From: Odiellus spinosus
Taxonomy: Eukaryota > Arthropoda > Arachnida > Opiliones > Phalangiidae
Assembly (NCBI GenBank): GCA_963920705.1
Contig: OY987234.1
Coordinates: 22,587,794-22,651,793 of the forward strand
DNA: 64,000 nt
Reading direction: 5' to 3'
Shown one piece after another: positions 2,981 to 61,560 of the stretch. The translations under genes and the position numbers were made by a program. Positions within the stretch are counted from its first letter, which is position 1; every line of letters begins with the position of its first letter. The notes beneath the pieces were generated by a model. That model was not told where the DNA came from. It was given only the letters and a program-made list of their open reading frames with translations, and searched no databases.

Positions 2981-2986
2981 TATATA
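2981..2986 (+). promoter_or_regulatory. Candidate TATA box of the repeat-protein gene
   Basis: TATATA lies 102 bases before the ATG at 3088. A start site about 30 bases downstream would give a short, intron-free leader of about 70 nt. The match is to the motif only; in DNA this AT-rich chance matches are common. Confidence 0.35.
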
Positions 2987-3087: not shown

Positions 3088-6000
3088 ATGAATCTAAAAA
3101 GCTTAGGACTACGCGCGTTTCTTTTGTTTTCGACGCTTATTAACGTATTATGGGCCAAATCCTTCGCCATCCACGAAATTAATAAAATTAGAAACCTTAA
3201 TTTGGTACAAAAGTGTCCGGAAATAAAAGATAAGTATAACTTAGATAAAGTAAGCGGCGAGTTAAATTTCGAAATAAAACCAAGAACTGATCTCTATTTA
3301 CGCGCTGAGATGGAAGAAATGAGATACGCGCCGATAGACGAATCAACGAGTGAAACGCCGAGAATGCTAAAAAATGACGTTGGCAATAAAGTGTCCAAAG
3401 ATACGGAGATAAGTTTAATGAATTATCTTAAAAATAATAGACTGAAAGGTAACGGGAAGAAGACTCGCGAGGATGAAGGCAAAGACAGCGCGGAAGACGA
3501 AGATGCTACAAATAAAATAATGACTAGGAAGAGAGGCACGATCATAAGGAGAGAGACTATTACAGAACCAAATTTTGACAAAGAAACTACGACAAAACCC
3601 AATTATGAGGAGACTACGACAGAACCAAATTATGACAAGAATGCAACTACGGAAAGAAATGATGACAAAGAGCGCCCTTTAAAACCAAAAGCTAACAATA
3701 AAACTGCAACAAAACCAAACAATGAGAGGAAGACTGCCAAGGAAGCAACGGATGAGAATAAGACTGCCAAGGAAGCAACGGATGAGAATAAGACAACTAC
3801 AGAACCAACTGATGAGAATGGGTCTACTACAGAACCAATTGATGAGAATGGGTCTACTACAGAACCAACTGATGAGAATGGGTCTACTACAGAACCAACT
3901 GATGAGAATGGGTCTACTACAGAACCAACTGATGAGAATGGGTCTACCACAGAACCAACTGATGAGAATGGGTCTACTACAGAACCAACTGATGAGAATG
4001 GGTCTACTACAGAACCAACTGATGAGAATGGGTCTACTACAGAACCAACTGATGAGAATGGGTCTACTACAGAACAAACTGATGAGAATGGGTCTACTAC
4101 AGAACAAACTGATGAGAATGGGTCTACTACAGAACAAACCGATGGGAATGAGATAACTGCGGACCCAACCGATGAGAATGAAACAACTACGGAACTAACC
4201 GACGAGAACGAGACCACAACGGAACCAACCTATGCGAACGAAACCACTACAGAACCAACCGATGCGAACGAAACTAGTACAGAACCAACCGATGAGAGCG
4301 AAACCACTACAGAACCAACCGATGCGAACGAAACCACTACAGAACCAACCGATGCGAACGAAACTAGTACAGAACCAACCGATGAGAGCGAAACTACTAC
4401 AGAACCAACCGATGAGAGCGAAACTACTACAGAACCAACCGATGAGAGCGAAACCACTACAGAACCAACCGATGCGAACGAAACTAGTGCAGAACCAACC
4501 GATGAGAGCGAAACTACTACAGAACCAACCGATGAGAGCGAAACTACTACAGAACCAACCGATGAGAGCGAAACCACTACAGAACCAACCGATGCGAACG
4601 AAACTAGTGCAGAACCAACCGATGAGAACGAAACAACTACAGAACCAACCGATGCGAACGAAACCACCACAGAACCAACCGATGAGAGCGAAACTACTAC
4701 AGAACCAACTGATGAGAACGAAACCACTACCGAACCAACCGAGGCGAGTGAAACCACCACAGAACCAACTGATGAGAACGAAACCACTACCGAACCAACC
4801 GAGGCGAGTGAAACCACCACAGAACCAACCGAGGCGAGCGAAACCACTACAGAACCAACCGATGCGAACGAAACCACTACAGAACCAACCGATGCGAACG
4901 AAACCACCACAGAACCAACCGAGGCGAACGAAACTAGTACAGAACCAACCGATGAGAGCGAAACTACTACAGAACCAACCGATGAGAGCGAAACCACTAC
5001 AGAACCAACCAATGCGAACGAAACTAGTGCAGAACCAACCGATGAGAACGAAACAACTACAGAACCAACCGATGCGAACGAAACCACCACAGAACCAACC
5101 GATGCGAACGAAACCACCACAAAACCAACCGATGAGAGCGAAACTACTACAGAACCAACTGATGAAAACGAAACCACTACCGAACCAACCGAGGCGAGTG
5201 AAACCACCACAGAACCAACTGATGAAAACGAAACCACTACCGAACCAACCGAGGCGAGTGAAACCACCACAGAACCAACCGAGGCGAGCGAAACCACTAC
5301 AGAACCAACCGATGCGAACGAAACCACTACAGAACCAACCGATGCGAACGAAACCACTACAGAACCAACCGATGCGAACGAAACCACTACAGAACCAACC
5401 GATGCGAACGAAACCACTACAGAACCAACCGATGCGAACGAAACCACTACAGAACCAACCGATGCGAACGAAACCACTACAGAACCAACCGATGCGAACG
5501 AAACCACTACAGAACCAACCGATGCGAACGAAACCACTACAGAACCAACCGATGCGAACGAAACCACTACAGAACCAACCGATGCGAACGAAACCACCAC
5601 AGAACCAACCGATGAGAGCGAAACTACTACAGAACCAACCGATGAGAGCGAAACCACTACAGAACCAACCGATGCGAACGAAACTACTACAGAACCAACC
5701 GATGAGAACGAAACAACTACAGAACCAACCGATGCGAACGAAACCACCACAGAACCAACCGATGAGAGCGAAACTACTACAGAACCAACTGATGAGAACG
5801 AAACCACTACCGAACCAACCGAGGCGAGTGAAACCACCACAGAACCAACTGATGAGAACGAAACCACTACCGAACCAACCGAGGCGAGCGAAACCACTAC
5901 AGAACCAACCGATGCGAACGAAACCACTACAGAACCAACCGATGCGAACGAAACCACTACAGAACCAACCGATGCGAACGAAACCACCACAGAACCAACC

Positions 6001-9000
6001 GAGGCGAACGAAACTAGTACAGAACCAACCGATGAGAGCGAAACTACTACAGAACCAACCGATGAGAGCGAAACTACTACAGAACCAACCGATGAGAGCG
6101 AAACCACTACAGAACCAACCAATGCGAACGAAACTAGTGCAGAACCAACCGATGAGAACGAAACAACTACAGAACCAACCGATGCGAACGAAACCACCAC
6201 AGAACCAACCGATGCGAACGAAACCACCACAGAACCAACCGATGAGAGCGAAACTACTACAGAACCAACTGATGAAAACGAAACCACCACAGAACCAACC
6301 GATGCGAACGAAACCACCACAGAACCAACCGATGAGAGTGAAACCACCACAGAACCAACCGATGAGAGTGAAACCACCACAGAACCAACTGATGAAAACG
6401 AAACCACTACCGAACCAACCGAGGCGAGTGAAACCACCACAGAACCAACCGAGGCGAGCGAAACCACTACAGAACCAACCGATGCGAACGAAACCACTAC
6501 AGAACCAACCGATGCGAACGAAACCACTACAGAACCAACCGATGCGAACGAAACCACTACAGAACCAACCGATGCGAACGAAACCACTACAGAACCAACC
6601 GATGCGAACGAAACCACTACAGAACCAACCGATGCGAACGAAACCACTACAGAACCAACCGATGCGAACGAAACCACTACAGAACCAACCGATGCGAACG
6701 AAACCACTACAGAACCAACCGATGCGAACGAAACCACTTCAGAACCAACCGATGCGAACGAAACCACTACAGAACCAACCGATGCGAACGAAACCACTAC
6801 AGAACCAACCGATGCGAACGAAACCACTACAGAACCAACCGATGCGAACGAAACCACTACAGAACCAACCGATGCGAACGAAACCACTACAGAACCAACC
6901 GATGCGAACGAAACCACTACAGAACCAACCGATGCGAACGAAACCACTACAGAACCAACCGATGCGAACGAAACCACTACAGAACCAACCGATGCGAACG
7001 AAACCACTACAGAACCAACCGATGCGAACGAAACCACTACAGAACCAATCGATGCGAACGAAACCACTACAGAACCAACCGATGCGAACGAAACCACTAC
7101 AGAACCAACCGATGCGAACGAAACCACTACAGAACCAACCGATGCGAACGAAACCACTACAGAACCAACCGATGCGAACGAAACCACTACAGAACCAACC
7201 GATGCGAACGAAACCACTACAGAACCAACCGATGCGAACGAAACCACTACAGAACCAACCGATGCGAACGAAACCACTACAGAACCAACCGATGCGAACG
7301 AAACCACTACAGAACCAACCGATGCGAACGAAACCACTACAGAACCAACCGATGCGAACGAAACCACTACAGAACCAACCGATGCGAACGAAACCACTAC
7401 AGAACCAACCGATGCGAACGAAACCACTACAGAACCAACCGATGCGAACGAAACCACTACAGAACCAACCGATGCGAACGAAACCACTACAGAACCAATC
7501 GATGCGAACGAAACCACTACAGAACCAACCGATGCGAACGAAACCACTACAGAACCAACCGATGCGAACGAAACCACTACAGAACCAACCGATGCGAACG
7601 AAACCACTACAGAACCAACCGATGCGAACGAAACCACTACAGAACCAACCGATGCGAACGAAACCACTACAGAACCAACCGATGCGAACGAAACCACTAC
7701 AGAACCAACCGAAGCGAACGAAACCACTACAGAACCAACCGATGCGAACGAAACCACTACAGAACCAACCGATGCGAACGAAACCACTACAGAACCAACC
7801 GATGCGAACGAAACCACTACAGAACCAACCGATGCGAACGAAACCACTACAGAACCAACCGATGCGAACGAAACCACTACAGAACCAACCGATGCGAACG
7901 AAACCACTACAGAACCAACCGATGCGAACGAAACCACTACAGAACCAACCGATGCGAGCGAAACCACTACAGAACCAACCGATGCGAGCGAAACCACTAC
8001 AGAACCAACCCATGCGAACGAAACCACTACAGAACCAACCCATGCGAACGAAACCACTACAGAACCAACCGATGCGAACGAAACCACTACAGAACCAACC
8101 GATGCGAACGAAACCACTACAGAACCAACCGATGCGAACGAAACCACTACAGAACCAACCGATGCGAACGAAACCACTACAGAACCAACCGATGCGAACG
8201 AAACCACTACAGAACCAACCGATGCGAACGAAACCACTACAGAACCAACCGATGCGAACGAAACCACTACAGAACCAACCGATGCGAACGAAACTACTTC
8301 AGAACCAACCGATGAGATCGAAACCGCTACAGAACCAACCGATGCGAACGAAACCACTACAGAACCAACCGATGCGAACGAAACCACTACAGAACCAACC
8401 GATGCGAACGAAACCACTACAGAACCAACCGATGCGAACGAAACCACTACAGAACCAACCGATGCGAACGAAACCACTACAGAACCAACCGATGCGAACG
8501 AAACCACTACAGAACCAACCGATGCGAACGAAACCACTACAGAACCAATCGATGCGAACGAAACCACTACAGAACCAACCGATGCGAACGAAACCACTAC
8601 AGAACCAACCGATGCGAACGAAACCACTACAGAACCAACCGATGCGAACGAAACCACTACAGAACCAACCGATGCGAACGAAACCACTACAGAACCAACC
8701 GATGCGAGCGAAACCACTACAGAACCAACCGATGCGAGCGAAACCACTACAGAACCAACCGATGCGAACGAAACCACTACAGAACCAACCGATGCGAACG
8801 AAACCACTACAGAACCAACCGATGCGAACGAAACCACTACAGAACCAACCGATGCGAACGAAACCACTACAGAACCAACCGATGCGAACGAAACTACTTC
8901 TGAACCAACCGATGAGATCGAAACCGCTACAGAACCAACCGATGCGAACGAAACCACTACAGAACCAACCGATGCGAACGAAACCACTACAGAACCAACC

Positions 9001-9480
9001 GATGCGAACGAAACCACTACAGAACCAACCGATGAGAGCGAAACTACTACAGAACCAACCGATGAGAGCGAAACTACTACAGAACCAACCGATGCGAACG
9101 AAACTACTTCAGAACCAACCGATGCGAACGAAACAGTTGCAGAACCAATTGATAAGTACGGGGTTAAAATGAACGAAATTTCAATTGAAGAACAACCCTT
9201 GAGCATCAAAGGACCCTTTGTGATCAAGGACCCCTTGTATTTCAATAGTTTTTTGGCCTGTAAAAGCGACGAAATTTGCTTAGATACTTGCGTGGCGAAT
9301 GGCAATTCGGCACTGGTAAAAGTCCTTAAAAAGCAAAATTACAAGGGTTTTTGCGTCAATAATCGGTGCAGATGTTGTTCCAAAACAGACAGAAAATGTC
9401 TCATCAGCGCGGGAATCAATCACATGTTCGATGGCTATGGCAAACTCAGAGGAAAACACTTACCATTTTGGTTTAATTAA
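3088..9480 (+). CDS. Secreted Thr/Pro/Glu-rich repeat protein with a C-terminal CS-alpha-beta-like cysteine domain
   Basis: One open frame of 2130 codons without introns. The N-terminus is a good signal peptide (hydrophobic core AFLLFSTLINVLW, likely cleavage after residue 23). Residues 24-211 are charged and rich in Lys and Glu. Residues 212-2021 are 181 uninterrupted 10-residue repeats, consensus DANETTTEPT, with variants DENGSTTEPT, DESETTTEPT and EASETTTEPT. Most units contain an N-x-T/S sequon and four Thr, so dense N- and O-glycosylation is expected. Two to four acidic residues per unit make the chain strongly negative. The tail holds Cys 2058, 2064, 2068, 2089, 2094, 2096, 2097 and 2104. 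The CxxxC (2064-2068), GFC (2087-2089) and CxC (2094-2096) spacings match the CS-alpha-beta/gamma-core pattern of defensin-like peptides. The last 26 residues are basic and aromatic. A mucin-like coat, silk/glue or cuticular secretion is plausible; the function is unknown. The start is the first ATG, directly before the signal peptide. AATAAA follows 18 nt after the stop. Confidence 0.85.
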   Translation: MNLKSLGLRAFLLFSTLINVLWAKSFAIHEINKIRNLNLVQKCPEIKDKYNLDKVSGELNFEIKPRTDLYLRAEMEEMRYAPIDESTSETPRMLKNDVGNKVSKDTEISLMNYLKNNRLKGNGKKTREDEGKDSAEDEDATNKIMTRKRGTIIRRETITEPNFDKETTTKPNYEETTTEPNYDKNATTERNDDKERPLKPKANNKTATKPNNERKTAKEATDENKTAKEATDENKTTTEPTDENGSTTEPIDENGSTTEPTDENGSTTEPTDENGSTTEPTDENGSTTEPTDENGSTTEPTDENGSTTEPTDENGSTTEPTDENGSTTEQTDENGSTTEQTDENGSTTEQTDGNEITADPTDENETTTELTDENETTTEPTYANETTTEPTDANETSTEPTDESETTTEPTDANETTTEPTDANETSTEPTDESETTTEPTDESETTTEPTDESETTTEPTDANETSAEPTDESETTTEPTDESETTTEPTDESETTTEPTDANETSAEPTDENETTTEPTDANETTTEPTDESETTTEPTDENETTTEPTEASETTTEPTDENETTTEPTEASETTTEPTEASETTTEPTDANETTTEPTDANETTTEPTEANETSTEPTDESETTTEPTDESETTTEPTNANETSAEPTDENETTTEPTDANETTTEPTDANETTTKPTDESETTTEPTDENETTTEPTEASETTTEPTDENETTTEPTEASETTTEPTEASETTTEPTDANETTTEPTDANETTTEPTDANETTTEPTDANETTTEPTDANETTTEPTDANETTTEPTDANETTTEPTDANETTTEPTDANETTTEPTDANETTTEPTDESETTTEPTDESETTTEPTDANETTTEPTDENETTTEPTDANETTTEPTDESETTTEPTDENETTTEPTEASETTTEPTDENETTTEPTEASETTTEPTDANETTTEPTDANETTTEPTDANETTTEPTEANETSTEPTDESETTTEPTDESETTTEPTDESETTTEPTNANETSAEPTDENETTTEPTDANETTTEPTDANETTTEPTDESETTTEPTDENETTTEPTDANETTTEPTDESETTTEPTDESETTTEPTDENETTTEPTEASETTTEPTEASETTTEPTDANETTTEPTDANETTTEPTDANETTTEPTDANETTTEPTDANETTTEPTDANETTTEPTDANETTTEPTDANETTTEPTDANETTSEPTDANETTTEPTDANETTTEPTDANETTTEPTDANETTTEPTDANETTTEPTDANETTTEPTDANETTTEPTDANETTTEPTDANETTTEPTDANETTTEPIDANETTTEPTDANETTTEPTDANETTTEPTDANETTTEPTDANETTTEPTDANETTTEPTDANETTTEPTDANETTTEPTDANETTTEPTDANETTTEPTDANETTTEPTDANETTTEPTDANETTTEPTDANETTTEPTDANETTTEPIDANETTTEPTDANETTTEPTDANETTTEPTDANETTTEPTDANETTTEPTDANETTTEPTDANETTTEPTEANETTTEPTDANETTTEPTDANETTTEPTDANETTTEPTDANETTTEPTDANETTTEPTDANETTTEPTDANETTTEPTDASETTTEPTDASETTTEPTHANETTTEPTHANETTTEPTDANETTTEPTDANETTTEPTDANETTTEPTDANETTTEPTDANETTTEPTDANETTTEPTDANETTTEPTDANETTSEPTDEIETATEPTDANETTTEPTDANETTTEPTDANETTTEPTDANETTTEPTDANETTTEPTDANETTTEPTDANETTTEPIDANETTTEPTDANETTTEPTDANETTTEPTDANETTTEPTDANETTTEPTDASETTTEPTDASETTTEPTDANETTTEPTDANETTTEPTDANETTTEPTDANETTTEPTDANETTSEPTDEIETATEPTDANETTTEPTDANETTTEPTDANETTTEPTDESETTTEPTDESETTTEPTDANETTSEPTDANETVAEPIDKYGVKMNEISIEEQPLSIKGPFVIKDPLYFNSFLACKSDEICLDTCVANGNSALVKVLKKQNYKGFCVNNRCRCCSKTDRKCLISAGINHMFDGYGKLRGKHLPFWFN
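3721..9150 (+). repeat. Coding minisatellite, 181 units of 30 bp
   Basis: Every unit is exactly 30 bp with no indel, so the reading frame is held over 5.43 kb. Typical unit start: GATGCGAACGAAACCACTAC. Sub-blocks are visible. 3811-4140 holds 11 copies of the DENGSTTEPT type. 4200-6480 is a mosaic of DAN, DEN, DES and EAS types in which multi-unit blocks recur (for example around 4681, 5131, 5761 and 6241). From about 6480 almost every unit is identical at the DNA level. The rare unit pair carrying ATC (DEIETATEPT) occurs at 8281 and 8881, 600 bp (20 units) apart, which points to a recent block duplication. Confidence 0.97.
9241..9402 (+). other. Eight-cysteine CS-alpha-beta-like module of the repeat protein
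   Basis: Encodes residues 2052-2105. Cys pattern: C-x5-C-x3-C-x20-C-x4-C-x-C-C-x6-C. The first six cysteines fit the CxxxC...GxC...CxC signature of cysteine-stabilised alpha-beta peptides (invertebrate defensins and related folds). The adjacent Cys at 2097 and the Cys at 2104 could make a fourth disulphide. The loop before GxC is longer than usual in short defensins. It might instead be an unrelated cysteine-knot capping domain. No activity is implied by the spacing alone. Confidence 0.5.
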
Positions 9481-9497
9481 AATGTATGAAAATAGCC

Positions 9498-9503
9498 AAT
9501 AAA
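9498..9503 (+). promoter_or_regulatory. Polyadenylation signal of the repeat-protein gene
   Basis: AATAAA begins 18 nt after the TAA at 9478-9480. The 3' UTR would therefore be very short and end just before the satellite complex starts at about 9541. Confidence 0.7.
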
Positions 9504-9800: not shown

Positions 9801-9804
9801 GTAA

Positions 9805-10125
9805 TATATATATTTTTTTACAAGGGGTACCCCTTGTCAAAAATTTGATATTATTTATTTTACAGGGGGTGTAATATATATTTATTTTTTTTACAAGGGG
9901 TACCCCTTGTAAAAAAAAATCAATTATTATTTTTTACAAGGGGTACCCCTTGTAAAAATAAATTAGGTATTTTTTTACAAGGGGTACCCCTTGTACAAAA
10001 ATCAATTATTATTTTTTTACAAGGGGTACCCCTTGTAAAAAAAAATCAATTGTACCCCTTGTAAAAAAATCAATTATTATTTTTTTACAAGGGGTACCCC
10101 TGGTAAAAAAATCAATTATTATTTT
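9805..10125. repeat. KpnI palindrome array
   Basis: Several copies of the perfect palindrome ACAAGGGGTACCCCTTGT, flanked by T-runs on the left and A-runs on the right and spaced by AATCAATTATTATTTTTT. One partial copy starts the complex at 9541. The palindrome could extrude as a hairpin with a 9-11 bp stem. A TTTGATATTATTTATTTTA stretch at 9846-9864 matches the unit of the array at 40.2 kb. Confidence 0.85.
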
Positions 10126-10135
10126 TTTATTTTCA

Positions 10136-10447
10136 AATGGTGTTTTATTTTCAAAGCGTGTTTTATTTTCAAAGCGTATTTTATTTTATAGCGTGTTTTA
10201 GTTTCAAAGCGTGTTTTATTTTCAAAGGGTGTTTTATTTTCAAAGCTTGTTTTATTTTCAACGCGTGTTTTATTTTCAAAGCGTGTTTTATTTTCAAATG
10301 GTGTTTTATTTTCAAATGGTGTTTTATTTTCAAATGGTGTTTTATTTTCAAATGGTGTTTTATTTTCAAAGCGTATTTTTTTTCAAAGCGTGTTTTATTT
10401 TCAAAGCGTGTTTTATTTTCAAAGGGTGTTTTATTTTCAACGTGTGT
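10136..10447 (+). repeat. 18-bp tandem array, second block
   Basis: About 17 copies of GTGTTTTATTTTCAAAGC and variants (CAAATG, CAACGC), the same family as 9591-9800. Confidence 0.85.
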
Positions 10448-10625
10448 TTTTCAAAAAAGGGGTGTTTTATTTTCAAAAAAGGGTGGTTTATTTTCAAAAA
10501 AGGGGAGTTTTATTTTCAAAAAAGGGGAGTTTTATTTTCAAAACAGGGGAGTTTTATTTTCAAAAAAGGGGAGTTTTATTTTCAAAAAAAGGGGAGTTTT
10601 ATTTTCAAAAAAGGGGAGTTTTTAA
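10448..10625 (+). repeat. 22-bp tandem array
   Basis: About 8 copies of GGGGAGTTTTATTTTC followed by about six A. It grows out of the 18-bp family through the intermediate GGGGTGTTTTATTTTC. Confidence 0.85.
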
Positions 10626-10895
10626 CAGGGGGTGTATTTATTATTTTTATTTTTTACAGGGGGTGTATTTATTATTTTTATTTTTTACAGGGGGTGTAAT
10701 TATTATTCTTATTTTTTACAGGGGGTGTATTTATTATTTATTTTTTTTTACAGGGGGTGTATTTATTATTCATTTTTTTTACAGGGAGTGTATTTATTAT
10801 GTAAAAAAATTGAACGATAAATACACCCCCTGTAAAAATAATTAATAATAAATACATCCCCTGTAAAAAAAAAAAAAATAATAAATACACCCCTT
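10626..10895. repeat. About 33-bp array with a local inversion
   Basis: Six copies of TTACAGGGGGTGTA with a TTTATTATTTTTATTT-type spacer on +. The same unit then runs on - from about 10820 (AATACACCCCCTGTAAAA). Confidence 0.85.
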
Positions 10896-13388
10896 CAAAG
10901 AAGCGGAGTTTTATTTTCTAAAAAGGGGAGTTTTATTTTCAAAAAAGGGGAGTTTTATTTTCAAAAAAGGGAGTTTTATTTTCAAAAAAGGGGAGTTTTA
11001 TTTTCAAAAAAGGGGAGTTTTATTTTCAAAAAAGCGGAGTTTTATTTTCAAAAAAGGGGAGTTTTATTTTCAAAAAAGGGAGTTTTATTTTCAAAAAGGG
11101 GAGTTTTAATATCAAAAAAGGGAGTTTTATTTTCAAAAAAGGGGAGTTTAATTTTCAAAAAAGGGGAGTTTTAATATCAAAAAAGGGGAGTTTTATTTTC
11201 AAAAAAGGGGAGTTTTATTTTCAATAAAGGGGAGTTTTATTTTCAAAAAAGGGGAGTTTTATTTTCTAAAAAGGGGAGTTTTATTTTCTAAAAAGGGGAG
11301 TTTTATTTTCAAAAAAGGGGAGTTTTATTTTCAAAAAAGGGGAGTTTTATTTTCAAAAAAGGGGAGTTTTATTTTCAAAAAAGGGGAGTTTTATTTTCAA
11401 AAAAGGGGAGTTTTATTTTCAAAAAAGGGGTGTTTTATTTTCAAAAAAGGGGTGTTTTATTTTCAAAAAAGGTGTGTTTTATTTTACAGGGGGTGTATTT
11501 TTACAGGGGATGTATTTTTACAGGGGATGTATTTTTACAGGGGGTGTATTTTTACAGGGGGTGTATTTTTACTGGGGGTGTATCAGGGGGTGTATTTTTA
11601 CAGGGAATGTAATTTTACAGGGGGTGTATTTTTACAGGGGGTGTATTTTTACAGTGGGTGTAATTTTACAGGGGGTGTATTTTTACAGGGGTGTAATTTT
11701 ACAGGGGTGTAATTTTACAGGGGGTGTATTTTTACATGGGGTGTAATTTTACAGGGGGTGTAATTTTACAGGGGGTGTATTTTTACAGGGGGTGTATTTT
11801 TAATATCAAAAAAGGGGAGTTTTATTTTCAAAAAAGGGGAGTTTTAATATCAAAAAAGGGGAGTTTTATTTTCAAAAAAGGGGAGTTTTATTTTCAAAAA
11901 AGGGGAGTTTTATTTTCAAAAAAGGGGAGTTTAATTTTCAAAAAAGGGGAGTTTTATTTTCAAAAAAGGGGGGTTTTATTTTCAAAAAAGGGGAGTTTTA
12001 TTTTCAAAAAAGGGGAGTTTTATTTTCAAAAAAGGGGAGTTTTATTTTCAAAAAAGCGGAGTTTTATTTTCAAAAAAGGGGAGTTTTATTTAAAAAAACG
12101 GGAGTTTTATTTTCAAAAAAGGGGAGTTTTATTTTCATAAAAGGGAAGTTTTATTTTCAAAAAAGGGGAGTTTTATTTTCAAAAAAGGGGAGTTTTATTT
12201 TCAAAAAAGTGGAGTTTTATTTTCAAAAAAGGGGTGTTTTATTTTCAAAAAAGGGGTGTTTTATTTTCAAAAAAGGGGTGTTTTATTTTCAAAAAAGGTG
12301 TGTTTTATTTTACAGGGGGTGTATTTTTACAGGGGATGTATTTTTACAGGGGATGTATTTTTACAGGGGGTGTATTTTTACAGGGGGTGTATTTTTACTG
12401 GGGGTGTATCAGGGGGTGTATTTTTACAGGGAATGTAATTTTACAGGGGGTGTATTTTTACAGGGGGTGTATTTTTACAGGGGGTGTATTTTTACAGTGG
12501 GTGTAATTTTACAGGGGGTGTATTTTTACAGGGGTGTAATTTTACAGGGGTGTAATTTTACAGGGGGTGTATTTTTACATGGGGTGTAATTTTACAGGGG
12601 GTGTAATTTTACAGGGGGTGTATTTTTACAGGGGGTGTATTTTTACAGGGGGTGTATTTTTAATATCAAAAAAGGGGAGTTTTATTTTCAAAAAAGGGGA
12701 GTTTTAATATCAAAAAAGGGGAGTTTTATTTTCAAAAAAGGGGAGTTTTATTTTCAAAAAAGGGGAGTTTTATTTTCAAAAAAGGGGAGTTTTATTTTCA
12801 AAAAAGGGGGGTTTTATTTTCAAAAAAGGGGAGTTTTATTTTCAAAAAAGGGGAGTTTTATTTTCAAAAAAGGGGAGTTTTATTTTCAAAAAAGCGGAGT
12901 TTTATTTTCAAAAAAGGGGAGTTTTATTTACAAAAACGGGAGTTTTATTTTCAAAAAAGGAGAGTTTTATTTTCATAAAAGGGGAGTTTTATTTTCAAAA
13001 AAGGGGAGTTTTATTTTCAAACAAAGGGAGTTTTATTTTCAAAAAAGGGGAGTTTTATTTTCAAAAAAGGGGAGTTTTATTTTCAAAAAAGGGGAGTTTT
13101 ATTTTCAAAAAAGGGGAGTTTTATTTTCAAAAAAGGGGAGTTTTATTTTCAAAAAAGGGGAGTTTTATTTTCAAAAAAGGGGTGTTTTATTTTCAAAAAA
13201 GGGGTGTTTTATTTTCCAAAAAGGGGTGTTTTATTTTCAAAAAAGTGGTGTTTTATTTTACAGGGGGTGTATTTTTACAGGGGATGTATTTTTACAGGGG
13301 GTGTATCAGGGTTGTGTATTTTTACAGGGAATGTAATTTTACAGGGGGTGTATTTTTACAGGGGGTGTATTTTTACAGGGGGTGTAAT
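10896..13388 (+). repeat. Alternating 22-bp/17-bp higher-order array, left arm
   Basis: Blocks alternate: 22-bp units (10896-11425, 11806-12230, 12661-13165), a few GGGGTGTTTTATTTTC transition units, then 17-bp units (11486-11805, 12305-12660, 13256-13388). Each return to 22-bp units passes through the same AATATC junction. The same transition GGTGTGTTTT appears at 11471 and 12297, giving a higher-order period of 826 bp. The third block has a shortened 17-bp part before the centre of inversion. Confidence 0.9.
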
Positions 13389-16300
13389 TTTACACCCCCT
13401 GTAAAAATACACCCCCTGTAAAAATACACCCCCTGTAAAAATACACCCCCTGTAAAAATACACCCCCTGTAAAATTACACCCCCTGTAAAATTACACCCC
13501 CTGTAAAAATACACCCCCTGTAAAATTACACCCCCTGTAAAATTACACCCCCTGTAAAAATACACCCCCTGTAAAAATACACCCCCTGTAAAAATACACC
13601 CCCTGTAAAAATACACCCCCTGTAAAAATACACCCCCTGTAAAAATACACCCCCTGTAAAAATACACCCCCTGTAAAAATACACCCTCTGTAAAAATACA
13701 CCCCCTGTAAAAATACACCCCCTGTAAAAATACACCCCCTGTAAAAATACATCCCCTGTAAAAATACACCCCCTGTAAAATAAAACACCCCTTTTTTGAA
13801 AATAAAACACCCCTTTTTTGAAAATAAAACACCCCTTTTTGAAAATAAAACTCCCCTTTTTTGAAAATAAAACTCCCCTTTTTTGAAAATAAAACTCCCC
13901 TTTTTTGAAAATAAAACTCCCCTTTTTTGAAAATAAAACTCCCCTTTTTTGAAAATAAAACTCCCCTTTTTTGTAAATAAAACTCCCCTTTTTTGAAAAT
14001 AAAACTCCGCTTTTTTGAAAATAAAACTCCCCTTTTTTGAAAATAAAACTCCCCTTTTTTGAAAATAAAACTCCCCTTTTTTGAAAATAAAACTCCCCTT
14101 TTTTGAAAATAAAACTCCCCTTTTTTGAAAATAAAACATCCCTTTTTTGAAAATAAAACTCCCCTTTTCGAAAATAAAACTCCCCTTTTTTGAAAATAAA
14201 ACTCCCTTTTGAAAATAAAACTCCTCTTTTTTTATATTAAAACTCCCTTTTTTGAAAATAAAACTCACCTTTTTTGAAAATAAAACTCCCTTTTTTGAAA
14301 ATAAAACTCCCTTTTTTGAAAATAAAACTCCCCTTTTTTGAAAATAAATCTCCCCTTTTTTGAAAATAAAACTCCCCTTTTTGAAAATTAAACTCCCCTT
14401 TTTTGAAAATAAATCTCCCCTTTTTGAAAATAAAACTCCCCTTTTTTGAAAATAAAACTCCCCTTTTTGAAAATAAAACTCATCTTTTTTGAAAATAAAA
14501 CTCCCCTTTTTTGAAAATAAAACACCCCTTTTTTGAAAATAAAACACCCCTTTTTTGAAAATAAAACTCCCCTTTTTTGAAAATAAAACTCACCTTTTTT
14601 GAAAATAAAACTCCCCTTTTTGAAAATAAAACTCACCTTTTTTGAAAATAAAACTCCCCTTTTTTGAAAATGAAACTCCCCTTTTTTGAAAATAAAACTC
14701 CCCTTTTTTTGAAAATAAAACTCCCCTTTTTTGAAAATAAAACTCCCCTTTTTTGATATTAAAAATACACCCCCTGTAAAAATACACCCCCTGTAAAAAT
14801 ACACCCCCTGTAAAAATACACCCCCTGTAAAAATACACCCCCTGTAAAAATACACCCCCTGTAATAATACACCCCCTGTAAAAATACACCCCCTGTAAAA
14901 TTACACCCCCTGTAAAATTACACCCCCTGTAAAAATACACCCCCTGTAAAAATACACCCCTGTAAAAATAAACCCTCTGTAAAAATACATCCCCTGTAAA
15001 AATACACCCCCTGTAAAATAAAACACACCTTTTTTGAAAATAAAACACACCTTTTTTGAAAATAAAACACCCCTTTTTTGATATTAAAAATACACCCCCT
15101 GTAAAAATACACCCCCTGTAAAATTACACCCCCTGTAAAATTACACCCCCTGTAAAAATACACCCCCTGTAAAAATACACCCCTGTAAAAATACACCCCC
15201 TGTAAAATAAAACACCCCTTTTTTGAAAATAAAACACCCCTTTTTTGAAAATAAAACACCCCTTTTTTGAAAATAAAACACCCCTTTTTTGAAAATAAAA
15301 CACCCCTTTTTTGAAAATAAAACTCCCCTTTTTTGAAAATAAAACTCACCTTTTTTGAAAATAAAACTCCCCTTTTTGAAAATAAAACTCCCCTTTTTGA
15401 AAATAAAACTCCCCTTTTTTGAAAATAAAACTCCCCTTTTTTGAAAATAAAACTCCCCTTTTTTTGAAAATAAAACTCCCCTTTTTTGAAAATAAAACTC
15501 CCCTTTTTTGATATTAAAAATACACCCCCTGTAAAAATACACCCCCTGTAAAAATACACCCCCTGTAAAAATACACCCCCTGTAAAAATACACCCCCTGT
15601 AAAAATACACCCCCTGTAATAATACACCCCCTGTAAAAATACACCCCCTGTAAAATTACACCCCCTGTAAAATTACACCCCCTGTAAAAATACACCCCCT
15701 GTAAAAATACACCCCTGTAAAAATAAACCCTCTGTAAAAATACATCCCCTGTAAAAATACACCCCCTGTAAAATAAAACACACCTTTTTTGAAAATAAAA
15801 CACACCTTTTTTGAAAATAAAACACCCCTTTTTTGATATTAAAAATACACCCCCTGTAAAAATACACCCCCTGTAAAATTACACCCCCTGTAAAATTACA
15901 CCCCCTGTAAAAATACACCCCCTGTAAAAATACACCCCTGTAAAAATACACCCCCTGTAAAATAAAACACCCCTTTTTTGAAAATAAAACACCCCTTTTT
16001 TGAAAATAAAACACCCCTTTTTTGAAAATAAAACACCCCTTTTTTGAAAATAAAACACCCCTTTTTTGAAAATAAAACTCCCCTTTTTTGAAAATAAAAC
16101 TCACCTTTTTTGAAAATAAAACTCCCCTTTTTGAAAATAAAACTCCCCTTTTTGAAAATAAAACTCCCCTTTTTTGAAAATAAAACTCCCCTTTTTTGAA
16201 AATAAAACTCCCCTTTTTTGAAAATAAAACTCCCCTTTTTTGAAAATAAAACTCCCCTTTTTTGAAAATAAAACTCCCCTTTTTTGAAAATAAAACTCCC

Positions 16301-16490
16301 CTTTTTTGAAAATAAAACTCCGCTTTTTTGAAAATAAAACTCCGCTTTTTTGAAAATAAAACTCCCCTTTTTTGAAAATAAAACTCCCCTTTTTTTGAAA
16401 ATAAAACTCCCCTTTTTTGAAAATAAAACTCCCCTTTTTTGATATTAAAACTCCCCTTTTTTGAAAATAAAACTCCCCTTTTTTGATATT
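13389..16490 (-). repeat. Alternating 17-bp/22-bp higher-order array, right arm
   Basis: The same blocks as the left arm on the opposite strand, with the same junction (GATATT, the complement of AATATC). The marker AACCCTCTGT is at 14971 and again at 15726, a higher-order period of 755 bp, so two near-identical copies cover about 14760-16270. Confidence 0.9.
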
Positions 16491-18774
16491 AAAAATACAC
16501 CCCCTGTAAAAATACACCCCCTGTAAAAATACACCCCCTGTAAAAATACACCCCCTGTAAAATTACACCCCCTGTAAAATTACACCCCCTGTAAAAATAC
16601 ACCCCCAGTAAAATTACATCCCTGTAAAATTACACCCCCTGTAAAAATACACCCCCTGTAAAAATACACCCCCTGTAAAAATACACCCCCTGTAAAAATA
16701 CACACCCTGTAAAAATACCCACCTGTAAAAAAACAACCCCTGTAAAAATACACCCCCTTTAAAAATACACCACCTGTAAAAATACGCCCCCTGTAAAAGT
16801 ACACCCCCTGTAAAAATACCCCCGTAGTAAAAAAAACACCCCCTGTAAAAATACACCCCCTTTAAAAATACACCCCCTGTAAAAATACGCCCCCTGTAAA
16901 AATACACCCCCTGTAAAAATACCCCCGTAGTAAAAAAAACACCCTGTAAAAATACACCCCCTTTAAAAATACACCCCCTGTAAAAATACCCCCCCTATAA
17001 AAATACCCCCCCTGTAAAAAAACACCTCCTGTAAAAATACACCCCCTGTAAAAATACACCCATTGTAAAAATACACCCCCTGTAAAATTACACCCCCGGT
17101 AAAAATACACCCCCGGTAAAAATACACCCCCGGTAAAAATACACCCCCTGTAAAATTACACCCCCTGTAAAAATACACCCCCTGTAAAAATACACCCCCT
17201 GTAAAATTACACCCCCTGTAAAATTACACCCCCTGTAAAAATACACTCCCTGTAAAAATACACCCCCTGTAAAAATACACCCCCTGTAAAAATACACCCC
17301 CTGTAAAAATACACCCCCTGTAAAAATACACCCCCTGTAAAAATACACCCCCTGTAAAAATACACCCCCTGTAAAAATACACCCCCTGTAAAAATACACA
17401 CCCTGTAAAAATACACCCCCTGTAAAAATACACCCCTTGTAAAAATACACCCCCTTTAAAAATACACCCCCTTTTAAAAATACACCCCCTGTAAAAATAT
17501 ACCCCCTGTAAAAATACACCCCTGTAAAATACACCCCCTGTAAAAATACACCCCCTGTAAAAATACCCCCGTAGTAAAAAAAACACCCCCTGTAAAAATA
17601 CACCCCCTTTAAAAATACACCCCCTGTAAAAATACACCCCCTGTAAAAATACCCCCCCTGTAAAAAAACACCTCCTGTAAAAATACACCCCCTGTAAAAA
17701 TACACCCATTGGAAAAATACACCCCCTGTAAAAATACACCCCCTGTAAAAATACACCCCCTGTAAAAATACCCCCCTGTAAAAAAACACCCCCTGTAAAA
17801 ATACACCCCCTGTAAAAATACACCCCCTTTAAAAATACACCCCCTGTAAAAATACACCCCCTGTAAAAATACCCCCCCCCCTGTAAAAAAAACACCTCCT
17901 GTAAAAATACACCCCCTGTAAAAATACACCCATTGTAAAAATACACCCCCTGTAAAATTACACCCCCTGTAAAAATACATCCCCGGTAAAAATACACCCC
18001 CTGTAAAAATACACCCCCTGTAAAAATACACCCCCTGTAAAAATACACCCCCTGTAAAATTACACCCCCTGTAAAATTACACCCCCTGTAAAAATACACC
18101 CCCTGTAAAAATACACCCCCTGTAAAATTACACCCCCTGTAAAATTACACCCCCTGTAAAATTACACCCCCTGTAAAAATACACCCCCTGTAAAAATACA
18201 CCCCGTGTAAAAATACACCCCCTGTAAAAATACACCCCCTGTAAAAATACACCCCCTGTAAAAATACACCCCCTGTAAAAATACACCCCCTGTAAAAATA
18301 CACCCCCTGTAAAAATACACCCCCTGTAAAAATACACCCCCTGTAAAAATACACCCCCTGTAAAAATACACCCCCTGTAAAAATACACCCCCTGTAAAAA
18401 TACACCCCCTGTAAAAATACACCCCTGTAAAATACACCCCCTGTAAAAATACACCCCCTGTAAAAATACACCTGCTGTAAAAATACACCCCCTGTAAAAT
18501 TTCACCCTCTGTAAAAATACACCCCCTGTAAAATTACACCCCCTGTAAAATTACACCCCTTGTAAAAATACACCCTCTGTAAAAATACACCCCCTGTAAA
18601 AATACACCCCCTGTAAAAATATACCCCCTGTAAAAATACACCCCCTGTAAAATTACATTCCCTGTAAAAATCCACCCCCTGATACACCCCCTGTAAAAAT
18701 ACACCCCCTGTAAAAATACACCCCCTGTAAAAATACACCCCTGTAAAAATACACCCCCTGTAAAATAAAACTCC
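16491..18774 (-). repeat. Long 17-bp array
   Basis: About 2.3 kb, near 130 copies of TGTAAAAATACACCCCC. Variants such as TACCCCCGTAGTAAAAAA and CACCTCCTGTAAAAAAA recur in the same order near 16820, 16930, 17000, 17570 and 17880, which shows block duplication inside the array. Confidence 0.9.
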
Positions 18775-19299
18775 CCTTTTTTGAAAATAAAACTCCCCTT
18801 TTTTGAAAATAAAACTCCCCTTTTTTGAAAATAAAACTCCCCTTTTTTGAAAATAAAACTCCCCTTTTTTGAAAATAAAACTCCCCTTTTTTGAAAATAA
18901 AACTCCTTTTTTTGAAAATAAAACTCCCCTTTTTTGAAAATAAAACTCCCTTTTTTGAAAATAAAACTCCCCTTTTCTGAAAATAAAACTCCCCTTTTCT
19001 GAAAATAAAACTCCCCTTTTTTGAAAATAAAACTCCCCTTTTTTTGAAAATAAAACTCCCTTTTTTTGAAAATAAAACTCCCCTTTTTTGAAAATAAAAC
19101 TCCCCTTTTTTGAAAATAAAACTCCCCTTTTTTGAAAATAAAACTCCCCTTTTTGAAAATAAAACTCCCCTTTTTTTGAAAATAAAACTCCCTTTTTTTG
19201 AAAATAAAACTCCCCTTTTTTGAAAATTAAACTCCCCTTTTTTGAAAATAAAACTCCCCTTTTTTGAAAATAAAACTCCCCCTTTTTGAAAATAAAACA
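18775..19299 (-). repeat. 22-bp array, right outer block
   Basis: About 24 copies of GAAAATAAAACTCCCC plus a T-run, the complement of the left-arm 22-bp unit. Confidence 0.9.
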
Positions 19300-20100
19300 C
19301 CCCTTGTAAAAAAATAATAATTGATTTTTTTTTACAGTGGTACCCCTTGTAAAAACATAATAATTGATTTTTTTTACAGTTATACCCCTTGTAAAAGCAT
19401 AATAATTGATTTTTTTACAAGGGGTACCCTTGTTAAAAAAATAAATACTCACCCTGTAAAAAAAAAATAATAATAAATACACCCTCTGTGGAAAAAAAAT
19501 AATAATAAATACCTCTGTAAAGTAAATAATAAATACACCCCCTGTAAAAAAAAAAAAAAAATAATAAATACCTCTGTAAAGTAAATAATAAATACACCCC
19601 CTGTTAAAAAAATAAATAATAAATACACCCCCTGTTAAAAAAATAAATAATAAATACACCCCCTGTAAAAAAAATAAGTAATAAATGCACCCCCTATAAA
19701 AAAATAAATATTAAATACACCCCCTGTAAAAAAAAAAAAAAAAAATAATATATACACCCCCATTAAAAATAATTTATTTTTTTTACAATGGGTACCCCTT
19801 GTAAAAAATAATAATTGATATTTTTTTTACAAGGGATACCCCTTGTAAAAAATTATAGTTAATTTTTTACAAGGGGTACCCCTGTAAAAAAAATAATACA
19901 TACTCCCCCTGTAAAAAAAAATAATAAATACACCCTATGTGAAAAAAAATAATTATAAATACACCCCCTGTAAAGAAAATAAATAATAAATACACCCCAT
20001 GTAAAAAAATAAATAATAAATACACCCCCTGTAAAAATAATTGTTTTGTAAAAAATAATAATTGATTTATTTTTTTTTTACAAGGGGTACCCTTGTAAAA
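19300..20100. repeat. Mixed KpnI-palindrome and about 33-bp units, right edge
   Basis: GGTACCCCTTGTAAAAA elements (about 19330, 19390, 19420, 19790, 19840, 19880, 20085) alternate with AATAATAAATACACCCCCTG units. It mirrors the left edge of the complex. Confidence 0.85.
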
Positions 20101-20941: not shown

Positions 20942-24748
<3,807 letters not shown>

Positions 24749-28045: not shown

Positions 28046-56253
<28,208 letters not shown>

Positions 56254-57539
56254 CTGTTTAAAAAGATAGAAAAAAAACACCCAAAATTAACACTCGTACC
56301 TTAAAAATTTAAAAAGTTTAAAAGAGATCGTGTATGTATTTAAACAAAGCGTAGGATTATTATCGTGGGAGTTTGTTTTTTGGCGCGAACTTTCTTAAAA
56401 ATTTAGAGAAGGGCGATACGCAAATAGGGTTTTTTTTTGTTTTTTTCCCACAAAAATAGGCCTAACTTTAATCTTTGACCATATATATATCCCACCATAA
56501 ATGTCCGGGAACGAAATTGGTTTTCTGGGCATGAAGGACTCAAGTAGGGAGTTAACAGTTTAACCTAACAGCTTAATATTCTTTTGTACTATTTATGGTA
56601 ACAAAAAAAAACAGCGAAATTCAACCTTTAGTCCCAAACTCTAAAATATTTCAGTCACTGGATGTGGCAAACCGGAAAGTCTGCGAAATATTTTCTACTT
56701 AATGTATATTTTTACCTTAAGTACGAACAAAGTACTTAGAATGATTTGAAAACTTCTAATTACAAGTTTAAAATGAGAGTAAATTTGTACTCAATGTTTT
56801 GAGTACGATTGAATAACAGTGTACTTATTAGAGTTAAATAATTATCCTAATGTCTTCAAGCTTACGATTTCTCTAAGAACAAACCAATCGGGTTGCTGCT
56901 TTCAAACGAGAGTAGTAGTGATGGGAAAATTAAAAGAAAACCATAGAGAGAAATTTAAATGCGGGTAAGTGGCTTCCATAAAAAGACTAATACAATCCAT
57001 TCCACAAGGGGGGGACAAAAAATAGATTTAAATTTAAAACTTTGTGATATTTTTGTACGTAATCCCGAAAAGAAGGGGGTCCTCAACAAAAGAGAAAGAA
57101 AAATATGATTTCAAGACGTCGCTATATTGATGATGAGATGTAAAAATGGTAATAAACTCAAGCAAGGTGGCCCCGCGCTATTCTTACTACAACTTTACAA
57201 GAAAAACATCTGCCGTGTCATTATAGCTCCCCGGTAATAACAGAGGTTCTTTTCTTTAACATACTAACACCAAATTTAAAGAAAAAAGTCTACAGATTCA
57301 TTTTTGATATAAATAAGAGCAGGCAATGACGTGAGATAAAAAAATTAAAGGTCTGATGAAAAGAAAAACTGGTTTAAATTAATATCAGCCTCAAAATTAT
57401 AACCTTTAAACCAACGACACGTTTTTGCTTATTTAGAGAAAATATAAACGCATAATCAAAAGATTATTTAATGGGATTTGAGTTAGGCTTAGCAGCGTGC
57501 GTTTGATTTAGGCTTAGTGGGGTTAAAGGTAGGTTTCAC

Positions 57540-59101: not shown

Positions 59102-61225
59102 TTATACATAATTTAGATAGAGATTAACCCTTTGACCTCTTAATCCTAACGAGAAAAGAGGAAAATTATTACATCATTTATTGCTTTGATAAGAAATTTT
59201 CATGGTTTATTATTTTTCTTGATAATTTGTTTCCTTACTAGATCATTACCTTCTAAAGTAATTGCATAAATAATACTTACTATTATCATGTAATTACTCG
59301 TTTCTCGAGTACCGTGTATAATAACTTATGGTATCAAGTACCAGAGCAGGTGCGAACAAGGATTAACCAAAAGCACGCGTCCATAAATTAAAACCCCGCA
59401 AAATCCCTCAGGGAATCTAGGTATAGGATTCACTATGCTGGGAGAGCGCGGATCTGAGATTAACTCGTTTTGAATTTGCAGTAACTACAATTATATTCTT
59501 CGCCCATCTCTCTTTTAAAAGCTAAAAATCAAGTTAAAACCTAGTTTAGAATTGTACGCGTTGATTGTTATAATCTGTTCGTCATATCTAACGAATATAA
59601 AGACCCCGTGAGCAGAGGGACAAAGAATTAAAAGAACTTTAACAAAGATAAAGAAAAATTCAATAAAAACGGAGTTGGGGACGGAAGAATTCAAGTTACA
59701 ATAAGGATGGTTAAACTTTAGTTATTTCGTCCTCTGGTTGTCGTGTTTTTTCCACAACATCGATTTAGCCAATCAGAACTAAATGCCCATCACACGAGGT
59801 ACTTAGAAAATAAAATAGTAGAATCCCTAGCGACACCTAGGAGAAAATTGGGAAAATATTCTATTTCAAATCTTCAATTTAAACATTATGATCTTCGATA
59901 GAGCCTCCTGTAATTGGCTCTTAGCTCTGATTGGTCCTTTGGCAACGGTGAAAAATTCAAATACATAGTTAAGCCTAATTAAGTTTTAAATAATTAATAC
60001 TAATCGAAATAATTTTTTAAAAAATGTGAAAAAATTCAGTGGGTTTTATTTGATTGCGAGGAATCGGATAAAAAATTAAAATGGGTATGGAATTTTCACC
60101 TAATAATCTTTCTTTAATATCTCTTTCAAAACAAGGACCCGGCCAATTTTAATTAACTAAAAATTATCCCGTAATACTGAATACACTTTCTGACACCCGC
60201 TTAACAAAATGTCAAACATGGAGCCCCTGAATTTTGTCTAATTAACAAAACTTCAGTTTGACATTATGCTTAGAAGAAAAATGTAGCCAAGGCTTAAGAA
60301 AAATCGTTAATATTTTAAAAAGAAGAAAAAAGTTTTAGATTACCCGGTAGACCGTAAAAAATTCAGAAATCATTTCGTTCGCTGAATTAAACGCGATATC
60401 GTCAAGGATAGGGATAGAATAAAACGTATAATAACTTGAAGAACGATGATACGATCCTACCTTCACTCTATTACATCCAAATGTTTAGATAGTCGAAAGA
60501 AAAATCGAAGAAACGAATATGGGTGCTTATAAAAGCGAGTTTTCAAAGACTACTTTATTAATATACGGGAATTGACATTATGTATCACTCCGCTTAAGCT
60601 TTTCCCATTATGTCAACTCTCTCAAACCTTAGTTTAGTAAGAAAACACTCCTACGCAAACCATATACCTTTTTATCCCTAAGATTTGATTTGTAAGAGAT
60701 AATGGCGAGGTTACCTTTCTACGTACTGAAAAATCGAACTGACACAGAGAACTTTCTGTTCTTTTTTTTTCACTCGAGGGCAAATGGCCAGAAAAGTTTT
60801 TTTTCGGAAGTTTTTTTTTTTTTTTTTTTTTTCTAAATCAGCAGATGCTGGTATAAAATATACAAGTAACGTAGAAAGAAAGTGAGAAGGGAATTATAAA
60901 CAACCAGGGCAGATGCTGACCCCACACTGACCCCTTACAGCCCAACCAGGAGTCCAAGACTTAAACAGTCCAAAGAACATCCTCTATATGATCAGGATGA
61001 ATAAGAAAAAAAAAACTGCTAAATTACACCAAGGAAAAGAAGAAAACTTTTCTTTTGTTGAAAAAGGATAAAAAATATCCATGTTTAAAAGGAGAGAGGA
61101 AATTCCGAATTAGATAAAGATATTTTTAATCCATGTAGTTTTTGCTTGCTATTTTAATTCAGCCAGTTAGAATTTTATTATTAATTGTTATAATGCTAGT
61201 AAAAACCCGAGAAAAAACAAGGGAA

Positions 61226-61560
61226 TTTTCCAGAATCTTTCCAGAATTTTCCCAGAATCTTTCCAGAATTTTCCCAGAACTTTCCATAATATTCCCAAAA
61301 TCTTTCCCAGAACTTTCCATAATATTCCCAGAATCTTTCCCAGAACTTTCCATAATATTCCCAGAATCTTTCCCAGAACTTTCCCAGAATCTTTCCCAGA
61401 ATTTTTCCAGAATCTTTCCATAATATTCCCAGAATCTTTCCAGAATCTTTCCATAATATTCCCAGAATCTTTCCCAGAATTTTCCCAGAACTTTCCAGAA
61501 TCTTTCCAGAATTTTCCCAGAACTTTCCAGAATCTTTCTATAATTTCCCGTAATTTCCCA
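61226..61560. repeat. CCCAGAATCTTTCC minisatellite
   Basis: Short units of 13-14 bp (TTTCCCAGAA / TTTCCAGAATC). In the middle they are organised in a 33-bp repeat that includes CATAATATTCCC (61283-61400). Confidence 0.85.

Follow-up and report, generated by a model that had tools for sequence, protein, structure and literature searches.

The Drosophila salivary glue mucins Sgs1, Sgs3 and Eig71Ee share a signal peptide, a long threonine-rich repeat array whose copy number varies rapidly, and a conserved, cysteine-bearing C-terminal segment of 50 (Sgs3), approximately 120 (Sgs1) or 135 (Eig71Ee) amino acids (aa); Sgs1 of D. melanogaster carries 86 ten-residue repeats, according to the sections available of two reports (PMC6352337, PMC9409817). 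The glycosylated repeats of fly glue mucins are proposed there to form extended hydrated threads, with the cysteines as links. Here we describe a gene in Odiellus spinosus (Opiliones) that resembles these genes in its signal, long threonine-rich repeat and cysteine-bearing end, a likeness judged on layout. It lies in a 64,000-nt stretch of DNA, hereafter called the window (GenBank assembly GCA_963920705.1, contig OY987234.1, positions 22,587,794 to 22,651,793). Our analysis suggests, with a probability of about 0.6, that the product is a secreted polyanionic mucin of a gel or glue, in which a cationic, disulfide-knotted end anchors or links the chains.

The original prediction of one intronless frame was borne out by a single open reading frame (ORF) of 2130 aa. 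The parts of the gene, in window coordinates, are as follows.

2981..2986, + strand: possible core promoter TATATA, 5' of the ATG (a motif match only, with no function implied)
3088..9480, + strand: coding sequence, 2130 aa, uninterrupted, ATG start (ORF list and coding tests)
3088..3168, + strand: signal-peptide-like start, approximately the first 23-27 residues (hydrophobic stretch beginning at residue 10)
3169..3552, + strand: unique N-terminal region to residue 155, with a single cysteine, Cys43 (sequence; Pfam)
3553..3795, + strand: about eight degenerate repeat units, approximately residues 154-236 (sequence)
3796..9135, + strand: array of 178 ten-residue units, consensus TTEPTDANET (repeat count)
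9136..9258, + strand: linker joining the array to the cysteine module (sequence; the modelled part is of low confidence)
9259..9399, + strand: eight-cysteine module, residues 2058-2104 (sequence, models and structural comparison)
9259..9375, + strand: cysteine-stabilized alpha-beta (CS-alpha-beta) framework within that module, with two more cysteines after it (cysteine pattern)
9400..9477, + strand: C-terminal end beyond the last cysteine (sequence; modelled as helix to about residue 2113, with low confidence afterwards)
9498..9503, + strand: polyadenylation signal AATAAA (motif), 18 bases 3' of the end of the stop codon

Insect mucins have been defined by a serine plus threonine content above 25%, at least four ten-residue repeats and a repeat domain exceeding one third of the length (Syed et al. 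2008; PMC2515642, available in part). The corresponding values here are 36.6%, 178 units and 83.6%. On these measures of its sequence the protein is a mucin, whose repeats would be O-glycosylated. Counting as a unit any decamer that matches TTEPTDANET at 6 or more of its 10 residues, we found 178 contiguous units in one register, 99 of them exact. The 181 repeats originally reported fit if some of the approximately eight degenerate units are included. The spacing of the GAACCA-type motif was 30 bases in 173 cases, 60 bases in 2 and never any other value; the units are therefore free of insertions and deletions (indels) throughout the array. Threonine and serine make up 736 of its 1780 residues, its net charge is about -564, and 139 of the 178 units hold an N-x-S/T sequon for N-glycosylation. 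The array is strongly acidic (isoelectric point 4.05), whereas the tail is basic (8.9).

Unit types were most varied on the 5' side (27 in units 1-60, 21 in units 61-120 and 11 in units 121-178), and a 12-unit block present at unit 48 recurred at unit 87, an unevenness that is as expected from unequal exchange. Sites within 3 mismatches of the repeat numbered 155 in the 443-Mb assembly, with places listed for the first 100, and 155 in the window. Among the best candidates scored in the same genome, the tail and its core matched only themselves at E 10, and the N-terminal region, which belongs to no Pfam family, found its own locus and, as the sole candidate for a paralogue, a stretch at E 2.05. 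The array and tail thus appear to be single-copy in the assembly. The repeat DNA and the N-terminus had no match in viral contigs, nor had the tail or the neighbouring minisatellite in viral or prokaryote contigs, results of little weight because animal sequences are few or absent in these collections.

The hydrophobicity of residues 1-220 peaked in a 12-mer starting at residue 10 (mean Kyte-Doolittle value 2.19), in keeping with the signal peptide that had been predicted. This assignment derives from hydrophobicity; cleavage would probably follow residue 23 or 27. Past residue 30, the best 19-mer reached only 0.91 and no segment was of transmembrane strength, so we infer that the protein is secreted.

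Frame length in itself says little in favour of a gene here, since an array of 30-base units can be free of stop codons in more than one frame; other frames were indeed open over the array, for 1691 aa on the minus strand and 1646 aa in another plus frame. The non-repeat ends are more informative in this respect. The 114 non-repeat codons of the tail stayed open in 1 of 4000 Markov sequences (0.004 by a simple per-codon estimate) and the 155 N-terminal codons in 0 of 4000 (0.0003). With a codon preference trained on 943 codons of neighbouring exon pieces, most of them Pfam-matched, the annotated frame ranked first of six at both non-repeat ends, and its score was equalled by 124 of 3000 non-coding windows for the tail and by 53 of 3000 for the N-terminus. 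The 39 distinct unit types were joined by 38 links, of which 11 were single-step silent, 13 single-step replacing and 14 multi-step and left unclassified; the ratio against opportunity was 0.37. Together, the open non-repeat ends, the codon bias and the polyadenylation signal support a real gene.

The cysteines of the protein are residues 43, 2058, 2064, 2068, 2089, 2094, 2096, 2097 and 2104. The last eight, within the final 114 residues, form the pattern C-x5-C-x3-C-x20-C-x4-C-x-CC-x6-C, so that the CxxxC, GxC and CxC spacings originally noted are real; Cys43 had been overlooked. One report, in its available part, states that the CS-alpha-beta fold requires a C..C-x3-C..C..C-x-C framework, which includes no glycine (PMC5234102), and the accessible text of another places the GxC of the gamma-core at the fourth framework cysteine (PMC5116183). 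C2058, C2064, C2068, C2089, C2094 and C2096 conform to the former, and G2087-F-C2089 to the latter. When the last 75 residues were shuffled 50000 times, the loose framework with GxC arose 67 and 50 times in two runs; the counts per 50000 were 7 for the 104-residue tail and 60 and 84 for the 50-residue core. In the six frames of the window this framework occurred in the tail only. A stricter framework with a short loop between the third and fourth cysteines (C3-C4) did not fit the tail, in which this loop has 20 residues. A long-loop spacing of the beta-defensin type fitted as well, less strikingly (158 of 50000 shuffles), and its strict form failed.

Two single-sequence models of the tail, with a predicted local distance difference test (pLDDT) score of 60.1 for the first and 79.6 for the second, both placed CxxxC on a helix, CxC on the last strand and the fourth cysteine on the preceding strand; an N-terminal strand appeared in the first model only. 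The structure prediction that had been proposed as a check thus returned a helix and hairpin in CS-alpha-beta order, at modest strength, and the module is predicted to fold as a helix, a two-stranded hairpin and an added helix. In a CS-alpha-beta fold the disulfides would be C1-C4, C2-C5 and C3-C6. The hairpin loop holds one basic residue. The amphipathicity of the helix in the loop insert was undistinctive, being equalled in 0.18 of permutations.

The genome offers defensins of its own for comparison. Searching it with Pfam Defensin_2 gave 13 matches at E 10, with 7 loci over the cut-off; matches occurred in 3 of 14 control genomes, none over the cut-off. Eight defensin-type sequences (loci L004 to L011) lie on three contigs (C5, C7 and C8), L004 and L005 being about 3 kb apart. 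When the tail was aligned with these eight, the six cysteines and the glycine were invariant, and the C3-C4 loop of the tail amounted to an 11-residue insert. In a HMMER profile of these sequences, each of them scored 26.6-61.0 bits when left out in turn, and the tail and its core scored 1.0 and 2.6 bits. Among 4000 shuffles, 443 (tail) and 147 (core) reached these scores; with the cysteines kept, the numbers were 739 (tail) and 668 (core) of 4000. hhalign placed the tail in register with a probability of 2% (E 0.024); among 400 shuffles this score was equalled by 3, or by 17 when the cysteines were kept. Sequence profiles thus did not establish kinship between the tail and defensins, and any likeness to the genome's own defensins beyond the cysteines is marginal.

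General searches gave a similar picture. Pfam, phmmer, the HMMER profile and Foldseek returned no significant match to the tail, and Defensin_2 (PF01097) did not match it at E 10. A methyltransferase model of Pfam on two short core pieces (E 0.13) was taken as chance. One search of the PDB by sequence gave 0 matches; a second gave 4 at E 0.75-2.2, all non-significant, including the scorpion toxin BmTX2 (E 1.9, same hairpin). A classical defensin was not among the rows of VIA-align, which carries no weight against a defensin. As a positive control, a PDB search with one of the genome's own defensins immediately recovered micasin, BmKDfsin3 and MGD-1. Coleoptericin had no match in the genome, and since its controls were silent too, this result is uninformative.

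These observations define how the locus differs from its closest counterparts. With invertebrate CS-alpha-beta peptides (defensins and scorpion-toxin-like peptides) the tail has in common C..C-x3-C..GxC..C-x-C and the predicted placement of helix and hairpin; it differs in its 20-residue C3-C4 loop with an extra helix, its added CC and C-x6-C, its fusion to a giant mucin and the lack of significant sequence similarity. The repeat is acidic, unlike that of the Drosophila glue mucins, for which the available text of PMC6352337 and PMC9409817 mentions no CS-alpha-beta end. Most members of the Sgs1-3-7-8-Eig71Ee family have a phase 1 intron in the signal peptide at about codon 10 (PMC6352337, as far as available), whereas the signal-like start here is uninterrupted; an intron upstream of the ATG is possible. 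Some fly mucins end in PerA (chitin-binding), von Willebrand C or DUF725 domains, and the word defensin is absent from the accessible text of that survey (PMC2515642). The plant proteins Art v 1 and Amb a 4 join a defensin fold to an O-glycosylated, proline-rich extended region, a possible anchor, but their defensin is N-terminal and the proline-rich part has about 53 residues, so that they offer an analogy only (PMC10281898, in part). Among the papers listed by our searches of an open-access library, none described an arthropod mucin with a CS-alpha-beta-like module at its end or a mucin-defensin fusion, and none was returned for the repeat string. The original view that no named family has this architecture was thus too strong for the layout, which is known from insect glues, and it held for the CS-alpha-beta end in that literature; a defensin-like end on such a mucin may be new.

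If our preferred interpretation is correct, the glycosylated acidic repeat would form an extended bottlebrush that holds water, in a product of a gland or an epithelium such as glue, silk coat, saliva, or egg or gut mucus. The combination of a strongly acidic thread and a basic end suggests that the ends dock on threads or surfaces, the compact cationic tail acting as a sticky end for polyanionic chains. Should the eight tail cysteines pair internally, Cys43 would be left free and could link chains through a disulfide between them. Repeat number would set the chain length and shift by unequal exchange, with both ends kept.

Among the alternatives, it seems unlikely that the tail belongs to a different type of small disulfide knot (either beta-defensin-like or an unrelated one) and resembles CS-alpha-beta by convergence, on a protein that is otherwise a glue or gel mucin. 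This alternative draws on the lack of significant matches, the immediate recovery of an own defensin from the PDB under the same treatment, the 20-residue C3-C4 loop and the fit of the long-loop beta-defensin-like spacing; the framework with its GxC and the modelled order of helix and hairpin argue for the CS-alpha-beta assignment. We consider it rather improbable that the tail works in host defence, as a peptide presented on a microbe-trapping mucin or released from it by cleavage. The framework, the GxC..C hairpin with one basic loop residue and the basic module would suit such a role, defensins are in use in the same genome, and the cysteine-bearing fly mucin Eig71Ee has been reported from bacteria-entrapping structures (PMC9409817, available in part). 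However, the cysteine framework alone cannot separate an antimicrobial peptide from a toxin or other functions (PMC5116183, in its available part), profiles did not tie the tail to the genome's own defensins, and the acidic array could neutralize the cationic end. A combined role, in which a CS-alpha-beta module with an extra helix on a giant acidic mucin makes a polymer-tethered defensin whose cationic knot serves to assemble the gel or glue and also protects it from microbes, is an equally speculative proposal. The initial interpretation was supported in part, in that the gene and the framework are real, and antimicrobial action is possible but unsupported. Finally, a minisatellite open by accident between chance open ends is very improbable: many non-coding arrays lie nearby, further frames are open and the coding evidence consists of sequence statistics, but the open non-repeat ends, codon bias, polyadenylation signal and signal-like start oppose it, as does the absence of indels in 178 units compared with indels in 11 of 13 other arrays of at least 20 copies, whose rows overlap and all but two of which are much smaller.

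The neighbouring genes are as follows.

20996-24700, + strand: MCM2 gene, several exons (Pfam and sequence matches)
29482-39158, - strand: receptor tyrosine phosphatase-like gene, exons (Y_phosphatase and fn3 matches)
55928-56257, - strand: immunoglobulin-domain exon (Pfam match)

The MCM2 and phosphatase-like neighbours are uninformative on the function of the mucin gene. An AT-rich array of repeated palindrome-like ACAAGGGGTACCCCTTGT elements lies just 3' of the gene (9803-10111), and long minisatellite arrays with 17-base and 22-base units occupy 10125-19305, where the motifs change strand at about 13390, so that the two sides of the block are roughly inverted relative to each other. A separate 30-base array (40198-41066) has the core TTTTACAGGGGGTGT in common with the 17-base unit approximately 20-30 kb away. 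At 61223-61538, an 11-base array of 28.8 copies of GAATCTTTCCA has several open frames.

Arthropod telomeres usually consist of TTAGG repeats, which flies are not known to have. TTAGG 30-mers numbered 7014 and 2583 by strand in the 443-Mb assembly, with 0 in the reversed control, a further difference from flies. Among the matches listed, one contig (C1) has TTAGG runs at many scattered internal places and one long run. The genome also holds one 7tm_6 receptor-like frame (E 6.3e-8), of a family that by itself would point towards insects.

Glues and mucins of arthropods are built on a shared plan, yet they end in different modules, most of which lack an explanation. Were the tail an unrelated knot, the protein would be one more fast-evolving secretory mucin. 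An end of the defensin type would tie the structure of mucosal or adhesive materials to host defence in a concrete and testable way, and would be a compact solution, found in nature, for a material that assembles or protects itself.

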